From assembly GCF_002156965.1 (NCBI RefSeq), contig NZ_CP021324.1, forward strand, positions 1,004,681-1,068,680: a stretch of 64,000 nucleotides of DNA. The letters run 5' to 3'. This document shows positions 60,037-61,811 of the stretch, one piece after another. The notes beneath the pieces were generated by a model. The model ran no database searches, was not told where the DNA came from, and saw only the letters and a list, made by a program, of their open reading frames with translations. Within the stretch, counting starts at the first letter, position 1; each line of letters opens with the position of its first letter. Both the position numbers and the translations under genes were made by a program. The DNA is from Candidatus Nitrosomarinus catalina. Its GTDB lineage: Archaea > Thermoproteota > Nitrososphaeria > Nitrososphaerales > Nitrosopumilaceae.

Positions 60037-60465
60037 TTAATTTTCAATATCTAAATCAACATGAACTTGTTGTATGCATGAATTGAGTTGTTCCTCATTA
60101 CCTATCCAGATTTCACGACAATTCTGAAGTTGTTGTTCATATGTATCCCAAAACTCATTGCTTTGAAGTAGAGAATTTTTTCCATCCTTTGCCATGTGAT
60201 AAACTTCAAGACCTGTAAAGCCTTCATATCTTTGAATCATTTTTTCATGAGATGCTTCAAATCTTTTTAATTCTTCTTTACAGGTATCTTGAGAATAACC
60301 AGATAGGTCCTCACATTGTTTAATTTTTTGTTGTAATTCATAGTATGATAGTTCCAGATTTCTCAACTCCCTTTCTTTAACAAAGTCACCATAATCAGCA
60401 GTTGCAATTATTCCAATGAAAATACCAACAGCAACTACAGCAATCACAACTCCAATTGTTCGCAT
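60037..60465 (-). CDS. membrane-anchored hypothetical protein
   Basis: 142 residues. One N-terminal membrane helix (TIGVVIAVVAVGIFIGIIA), then a charged, helical extracytoplasmic part with four Cys: IKQCEDLSGYSQDTCKEEL and QNCREIWIGNEEQLNSCIQ, likely two disulfides or pairs. The pattern C-x10-C and C-x15-C suggests a helical hairpin. Family not recognised. Confidence 0.72.
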   Translation of the reverse strand: MRTIGVVIAVVAVGIFIGIIATADYGDFVKERELRNLELSYYELQQKIKQCEDLSGYSQDTCKEELKRFEASHEKMIQRYEGFTGLEVYHMAKDGKNSLLQSNEFWDTYEQQLQNCREIWIGNEEQLNSCIQQVHVDLDIEN

Positions 60466-60514
60466 TACTAGGGCATATTACCCATAGATATTATCCCTTT
60501 TCAAAAATAAAGTG

Positions 60515-60665
60515 AAAAAAAAGAAGTTTTTGGACTTAAGATCATAACCGTGAGGTGTACGATGAGAGCCCATGCCACTTAAGATCAGAAAGTGTTCCTT
60601 TTCTGATGACAGTGTTCGTCTTAAGATCCCAAACGATTGTTTGTAGATGACAGACTTGTTCTTGT
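60515..60665 (-). ncRNA. candidate small RNA with three hairpin modules
   Basis: On the minus strand, GGTATATAACC (TATATA at 60688-60695) is about 26 bp before a start near 60665, and a T8 run (60515-60522) ends the region. Within it three modules occur, each CTSTCATC, a 17-18 nt hairpin, then GATCTTAAG; on plus coordinates they are 60535-60568, 60578-60612 and 60620-60653. The hairpins differ in sequence but keep pairing (ACC/GGT, AGAAAG/TTTTCT, CAAAC/GTTTG). G+C is about 42 percent over 60541-60660, above the flanks. No frame has a start codon. Strand assignment is inferred; the elements could instead be DNA sites. Confidence 0.55.
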
Positions 60666-60713
60666 AATTATCTTAAGGCAATTTTGGTATATAACCAGCG
60701 CTCATAAATTCTA

Positions 60714-60743
60714 CTAGTGCCAAAGTAATCAATTCTAGTGCCA
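60714..60743. repeat. CTAGTGCCA direct repeat, 21-bp spacing
   Basis: CTAGTGCCA occurs at 60714-60722 and 60735-60743, exactly 21 bp apart (two helical turns), upstream of a TATA-like CTATTTATTAG (60764-60773) of the reductase gene at 60798. The arrangement suits an activator or repressor dimer site. Confidence 0.6.
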
Positions 60744-60797
60744 TAAATTTGAATTTCAGATAGTCTATTTATTAGAGATAGAGGATGCAAAGGTATC

Positions 60798-61811
60798 TTG
60801 AAAATAGCAGTTATGGGAATGGGTGTAGCTGGATCATATCTAATGGCCAGACTAAAAGATTCTGAACATGATGTTACAGGATATGAATTAAAATCTGAAG
60901 AGACACATGACTCAATTTGTGCATGGGGAACAATCAAACCAGTTCTAACAGAATTTTGTAAAAAGACTGGAAGAAATTTTGATGACTTTTTGATTCATGA
61001 CGGAAAAAGTATGCATGTCAAAATGAATGACAATGTGAAATTTGATATCGGATTACACGGAATGTGTACATATGACAAATTAGCTTTAATCAAAGATTTC
61101 ATTAAAGATTCAAAAATAATTTACGGCAATCCACCAAAAAAAGAAGAACTTGAAAAAGAATACGACATGATAGTTGATTGTACTGGATTCCACAGAGTAT
61201 ACTTGCCAAAGATGAAAGAAGATTTCTTTTTACCAACTTATGAATACAAAGTAGAATATGAAAACGGAGTTCCATATGACGACTTTTACATTGAGCCATT
61301 TCCAGGAATGTCTGGATACTTTTGGTATTTCCCACTAGGTGAAAAATGGGCACATATTGGAGCAGGAGATTATAACAAAAATCACATTAAAGCAACAGAT
61401 GCATTTCTTAAAAAACACGGCGGTAAGGTTCTAAAAACTAAAGGTCGTCCAATCAGACTTGCAACACCAGATAGATGTAAGCCATATTATTCTGGAAAAG
61501 TTGTAGGTGTTGGCGAATCAATTGGTACAGTTTATGCACTACTTGGAGAAGGAATTATTCCATCAATGCAATGTGTGGATATTTTCATTGAAAATATGCA
61601 TGACTTTGCAGCATATGAAAAAGCAATTGAAAAACATTACAAAGTGTATGCTAAAGTTTTCAATTTTGTTAGAGCAAAAATTCACAAAGACTTTAACTTT
61701 TTGAAAGCATTGCCTGACTTTTTAGCAATCTTCCGGTACATGAAAAAGAATGAAGATAGATTTGGAATGGATATCAGAATTGCAGATTTGTTAAAAGTTG
61801 CTAAAGCCTAA
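60798..61811 (+). CDS. geranylgeranyl-reductase-family flavoprotein
   Basis: 337 residues from TTG at 60798. The FAD motif is IAVMGMGVAGSYLMARLKD, then a short GYELKSEE. Later DMIVDCTGF and VVGVGESIGTVYALLGEGII match the geranylgeranyl reductase family that saturates archaeal lipid isoprenoid chains or menaquinone tails. It is shorter than typical digeranylgeranylglycerophospholipid reductase (near 400), so substrate is uncertain. CTATTTATTAG gives the promoter; end overlaps the next convergent gene by 4 nt. Confidence 0.85.
   Translation: MKIAVMGMGVAGSYLMARLKDSEHDVTGYELKSEETHDSICAWGTIKPVLTEFCKKTGRNFDDFLIHDGKSMHVKMNDNVKFDIGLHGMCTYDKLALIKDFIKDSKIIYGNPPKKEELEKEYDMIVDCTGFHRVYLPKMKEDFFLPTYEYKVEYENGVPYDDFYIEPFPGMSGYFWYFPLGEKWAHIGAGDYNKNHIKATDAFLKKHGGKVLKTKGRPIRLATPDRCKPYYSGKVVGVGESIGTVYALLGEGIIPSMQCVDIFIENMHDFAAYEKAIEKHYKVYAKVFNFVRAKIHKDFNFLKALPDFLAIFRYMKKNEDRFGMDIRIADLLKVAKA

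Follow-up and report, generated by a model that had tools for sequence, protein, structure and literature searches.

A conserved three-arm small RNA predicted on the minus strand beside a reductase gene of Candidatus Nitrosomarinus catalina, and its possible role as a protein-binding platform

Nitrosopumilaceae are among the most abundant marine archaea and drive ammonia oxidation. In the window, by which we mean the whole 64,000-nucleotide stretch of the Candidatus Nitrosomarinus catalina genome analyzed here, the intergenic space at 60466-60797 holds a short array that raises a simple question: what is a thrice-repeated unit doing between two genes, and on which strand is it read? The space is bounded on one side by a minus-strand gene (60037-60465) and on the other by a plus-strand, TTG-start gene for an FAD-dependent oxidoreductase (60798-61811; weak GGR_cat / Trp_halogenase matches), below called the reductase. 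A preliminary description had placed three units here, each a CTTAAGATC box and a GATGASAG box around a hairpin of changing sequence. Exact matches confirm these units and their intergenic position, with CTTAAGATC, read on the plus strand, at 60535-60543, 60578-60586 and 60620-60628, and GATGASAG at 60561-60568, 60605-60612 and 60646-60653, and the three inner hairpins are present as described. The 9-nt CTTAAGATC box is not rare by itself (21 matches in the window with at most one mismatch, against 20.65 expected). The clustered triple arrangement is, on comparison with related genomes, not a product of chance, because relatives keep the array in place and a model trained on single hairpins of other genomes (R2, below) recovers exactly these arms.

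The question of strand is answered by the imperfect pairs. Across 58 aligned arms from 20 genomes, nearly every sequence keeps both the outer and the inner stem paired, and the pair adjoining the internal loop swaps between A-U and G-C with both sides changing together. When these arms are read on the plus strand, the non-Watson-Crick pairs comprise 44 A·C and only 3 G·U, whereas the whole structure read on the minus strand contains 72 G·U vs 22 A·C. Since every A·C becomes G·U when the opposite strand is read, this wobble asymmetry indicates that the three-arm RNA is encoded on the minus strand, and the plus-strand assignment of the preliminary description was wrong. A UAA/GAN-type reading of the plus-strand loop UAAG/GAC was abandoned together with that strand.

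The covariance model of the three-arm RNA, R1, matches the minus strand at 60520-60665 with 132.6 bits, with a predicted 5' end near 60665 and a predicted 3' end in a U-rich stretch at 60502-60525, such that the predicted RNA begins ACAAGAACAAGUCUGUC and finishes in a U tract. It looks like an RNA of about 150 nt in which three arms surround a junction closed by a stem. This closing stem, P1, would pair 60659-60663 (5' strand) with 60521-60525 (3' strand), with pair probabilities of 0.45-0.64 in the window; it covaries in relatives (helix 1), where it reads GAAAAGG/CCUUUUC, GAAAAGAC/GUCUUUUC or AAGACC/GGUCUU. Arm 1 (60618-60655) has the outer stem GUCU/AGAC and the internal loop GUC/CUUA, arm 2 (60576-60614) the outer stem CACU/AGUG and the same internal loop, and arm 3 (60532-60571) the outer stem GGGCU/AGUCC and the internal loop CUC/CUUA, all on the minus strand, with helices 2-3, 4-5 and 6-8, respectively, covarying. 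Every arm is thus built alike, from an outer stem ending in C-U/A-G, an internal loop in which NUC faces CUUA, and an inner hairpin, which gives the module consensus 5'-CU-NUC-RYC…GRY-CUUA-AG-3' with its asymmetric internal loop. The preliminary description overlooked the closing stem, the outer stems and the internal loop common to all arms, and it is these that make the conserved boxes working parts of the structure rather than its flanks. The lone CTTAAG at 60672-60677 does lie where it had been reported, but it does not belong to the unit, as it is upstream of the predicted RNA start and absent from most relatives.

Unconstrained folding returns the cloverleaf in most of the sequences from 19 relatives, and the fold z-scores against dinucleotide shuffles are -2.66 for the window, -6.77 for L004 and -4.40 for L020. 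In an alignment of 18 sequences and 47 pairs, 91.2% of the cells are paired, and changes on both sides are seen in 18 of the 47 pairs. The covariation score of 0.286 compares with 0.174 in shuffles, with 0 of 500 shuffles reaching it, and falls to 0.05-0.09 when the partners are slid by 1-3 columns. Because related sequences inflate cell counts, we also counted changes by parsimony on the tree of the neighboring reductase gene, obtaining at least 41 compensatory changes vs 6-17 in the slid controls. Variation falls in the outer and inner stems and, for arms 2 and 3, also in the terminal loop, with the internal loop being near constant (read on the plus strand, TAAG in 53 and GAC in 40 of 58 arms). 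Compensatory changes and presence in relatives, two of the checks that the preliminary description had proposed, are therefore both positive; its suggestion of selection on structure is strongly supported, and its view of the repeat as non-coding holds.

The RNA also carries promoter and terminator signals of its own, as expected of an independent gene. A TATA-like element, GGTTATATACC, lies at 60686-60696 on the minus strand, and relatives have similar words at a matching distance: over 43 loci, 35 TATA-like words fall at -25 to -30 from the predicted 5' end and 1 falls elsewhere, with a maximum of 3 at any position in 200 shuffles. Just upstream of this element, at about 60697-60725 in the window, many relatives carry an imperfect inverted repeat on the minus strand, CACTAGTAGGAAAAAGTAGTG, which may be an operator. 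At the other end, the U-rich tail TTCTTTTTTTTCACTTTATTTTTG (60502-60525, minus strand) shares positions with the 3' strand of P1 and is probably a terminator, and sequences downstream of the RNA are T-rich in relatives (52% T in the 25 nt after the RNA vs 34% in the 60 nt before it).

Both neighboring genes have promoter signals as well. The reductase, which lies outside the RNA, has a separate promoter block of its own immediately before its start, AGATAGTCTATTTATTA at 60763-60779 on the plus strand and nearly invariant in relatives as AGATAGTSTATTTATTA, divergent from the RNA, so that the gene looks leaderless and divergent. The preliminary description was correct in placing the array upstream of the reductase gene, although the RNA is read in the direction away from it. 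The minus-strand gene that comes next (60037-60465) also has a TATA-like element, GATAATATC, at 60487-60495 on the minus strand, at a distance from the start codon that fits a leaderless promoter; the RNA therefore need not be its leader. This gene also varies by clade, being a nitroreductase (PF00881) in most relatives and another protein in the clade of the window.

The reductase orthologue was found in 23 Nitrosopumilus genomes, including that of the window, and the array lies upstream of it in 20 of the 23 once the loci are turned to one orientation, with two clear arms only at L007 and L011. R1 finds the three-arm RNA in 68 of 95 Nitrosopumilus genomes (E ≤ 4e-15, the E-values of both R1 and R2 being rough), a count that is a lower bound and includes the sequences used to build R1. 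Other genera of the family have it too (g19, at the same locus, and g22, elsewhere), and outside Nitrosopumilaceae there is one weak R1 match, in G231. Several of the weak R1 hits (about 28-41 bits) turned out to be copies of a single module. A diverged second three-arm copy is present in some genomes, and several such copies lie about 115 nt upstream of DUF6659 genes. In the copies near DUF6659 at L077, L078, L079 and L086, arm 2 is replaced by CUGAGACCAA...UUGGAAUCAG, with a different internal loop; three identical sites would thus not always be needed.

The same module is found as separate, predicted single-hairpin RNAs of about 60 nt, with up to a dozen per genome. In G043, for example, the triple is at C1:324577-324723 (plus strand) and singles are at 520095-520156 and 1004139-1004200 (both minus strand). 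The pattern CTNTCRYC…GRYCTTAAG matches 44 of 46 near-complete genomes of the genus, usually several times each, compared with 13 hits in total for the backwards pattern. We note that a few genomes of the genus that are ≥90% complete, G020, G076 and G091 among them, have neither the three-arm RNA nor singles. The singles share a layout in which a conserved block (…TCAGTATGATCTAAATACTATTTT…) at promoter distance is followed by a spacer that varies and then by the hairpin and a U-rich stretch. Across the single-hairpin genes in loci L089-L244, the promoter block held in common is about 40 nt long and contains TCAGTATGATCTAAATACTATTTT, which suggests one common regulator. Among the main-group singles, the downstream gene is on the same strand in 46 cases and on the opposite strand in 52, a split that marks the singles as independent units, and several are at orthologous places in different species. 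A second group is divergent from a plastocyanin-like gene. Since the singles alignment was picked by sequence, part of the constancy of its core follows from that choice, and the outer stem, which the search pattern hardly specified, provides an independent test; it covaries in 8 of 10 pairs.

Trained on singles from other genomes, R2 finds in the 1.36-Mb window genome one single and exactly the three window arms. That only single (C1:442787-442848; L246:1501-1562) is divergent from the gene for a plastocyanin-like copper protein, a linkage repeated in about 30 further loci. R2 matches 134 of 400 genomes of the order, all of one family except G231, and 24 of 200 genomes of the phylum, all Nitrosopumilaceae. 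Of the 116 stretches that a strict pattern picks out of 84,980 species genomes, 114 bear archaeal titles (Nitrosopumilus, Nitrosarchaeum, Nitrosotalea and similar). The other two, L156 and L174, have bacterial titles but show the complete archaeal promoter and hairpin, and probably come from misbinned contigs. Judged by these searches, the module hardly occurs outside a single family. Genus g25 has a tandem of two modules (L073:3989-4087), which stands between the single and three-arm forms. The viral collection yielded one weak match only, a module-like hairpin without promoter on an IMG/VR contig (L245:397-430, 22 bits), possibly by chance.

What, then, would such an RNA do? From the strand, fold, covariation, family-wide conservation, promoter and U-tail signals and variable neighbors, all of which can be read from sequence, we infer a stand-alone minus-strand gene that would be transcribed into an RNA of about 150 nt, with three arms around the stem-closed junction, each presenting one copy of the conserved asymmetric internal loop (5'-CU-NUC-RYC ... 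GRY-CUUA-AG-3'). The module would also be produced by itself, as single-hairpin RNAs of about 60 nt from other promoters, which makes the module, and not its location, the likely working unit. What stays the same in arms 1-3, in the singles and in most paralogues is the internal loop with its adjoining pairs, and the best explanation for a loop that is enclosed by stems, conserved in sequence and present three times in one molecule is that it serves as a recognition site. The three-arm RNA would accordingly act in trans, its three copies of the site forming a platform for one partner, probably a protein that recognizes the internal loop and that the RNA either titrates, as a sponge, or assembles, as a scaffold. 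We give this reading, a trans-acting platform for an RNA-binding protein, a probability of roughly 55%.

The main rival is a trans-acting small RNA that works by base pairing, in which the exposed loops (UAAYC or AAUC terminal, and CUUA) would pair with mRNAs and the arms would supply several seeds. It holds this rank because the singles keep the UAAYC terminal loop, to which can be added that AAUC is kept in arm 1 of many relatives, and this partly kept terminal loop (AAUC/UAAYC) could be a pairing seed. However, in arms 2 and 3 the terminal loop varies freely, and the part that is universally kept is an internal loop between stems, an unusual location for a seed, which leaves base pairing as a doubtful account of the whole. 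Somewhat less probable again is a role in cis, as leader or attenuator of the minus-strand gene that follows. While a same-strand nitroreductase does follow in most relatives, and some diverged three-arm copies stand before DUF6659 genes as described above, the gene that comes next is not the same in all clades and is preceded by a TATA-like element of its own, the RNA ends in a U-rich stretch, and the gene downstream of the singles shows no preferred orientation. A cis leader is unlikely because neighbors and orientation vary, and this variation instead points to stand-alone small RNAs.

A DNA-level element, whether protein operators or the hairpin of a mobile element, is improbable: the singles are dispersed and multicopy, and CTTAAG is a palindrome, but operators keep their sequence, whereas here the inner and outer sequences change together as pairing partners, with wobbles specific to one strand, the singles have the gene pattern of conserved promoter block, variable spacer and conserved hairpin, and several are orthologously placed in different species. 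Finally, a plus-strand RNA in front of the reductase, to which the conserved position lends some appeal, has next to no chance of being correct, since as a leader of the reductase it is ruled out by the wobble asymmetry, the promoter and U-tail signals are on the minus strand, and the reductase has its own promoter block beside its start.

Rfam 15 returns nothing for the locus even at E ≤ 10, and nothing at gathering score for the singles and paralogues, in line with the earlier statement that no described RNA family fits. The open literature searched describes nothing like this RNA for Nitrosopumilaceae; Tan1 of marine Euryarchaeota (PMC5069720) is a different archaeal non-coding RNA. The three-arm RNA and the singles are new relative to both sources. 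As a family-wide RNA with a constant module, they offer a concrete bait for the RNA-binding proteins of Nitrosopumilaceae, and the covariance models can be used to annotate the RNA in many genomes and in existing metatranscriptomes.

Among known systems, the archaeal C/D box and H/ACA guides are likewise small structured archaeal RNAs, and H/ACA RNAs can hold several hairpins. The RNA here, unlike these guides, has no Rfam match and neither box C/D ends nor a 3' ACA box: it runs from ACAAGAACAAGUCUGUC to a U tract, with GATGA on the other strand, and its arms of about 38 nt contain a 3x4 internal loop. That loop, NUC opposite CUUA, has no G·A tandem, so that the arms hold no kink-turn (L7Ae-type), and the arms do not have the 4-bp helix between opposite 3-nt bulges of the bulge-helix-bulge splicing motif. 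Type III antitoxin RNAs (ToxI) also repeat structured units in tandem in one RNA, but ToxI has a fixed downstream toxin gene, whereas the downstream genes vary here. Tandem riboswitch aptamers (e.g., guanidine-II) share the repeated hairpins with a constant core, but lead a fixed gene set; the units here stand alone in either orientation to their neighbors, without the fixed position and orientation before a conserved gene set that mark a cis-regulatory leader or riboswitch.

The closest likeness is to the bacterial protein sponges CsrB/CsrC and RsmX/Y/Z, which are also stand-alone small RNAs with hairpins repeating one element, here the internal loop common to the three arms. In contrast to the sponges, the element is an internal loop, none of the arms has GGA in a hairpin loop, the host is archaeal, and the module also exists as separate single-hairpin genes. 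The sponges are further defined by CsrA/RsmA, the protein that they bind and titrate. We tentatively consider, as a possibility well short of even odds, an undescribed Nitrosopumilaceae RNA family in which multicopy singles and a conserved three-arm RNA feed one putative RNA-binding protein, as an archaeal titration system with CsrA/CsrB-like logic and unrelated parts. By analogy, the RNA would work most like a multi-site sponge RNA, yet it is not a member of the CsrB family.
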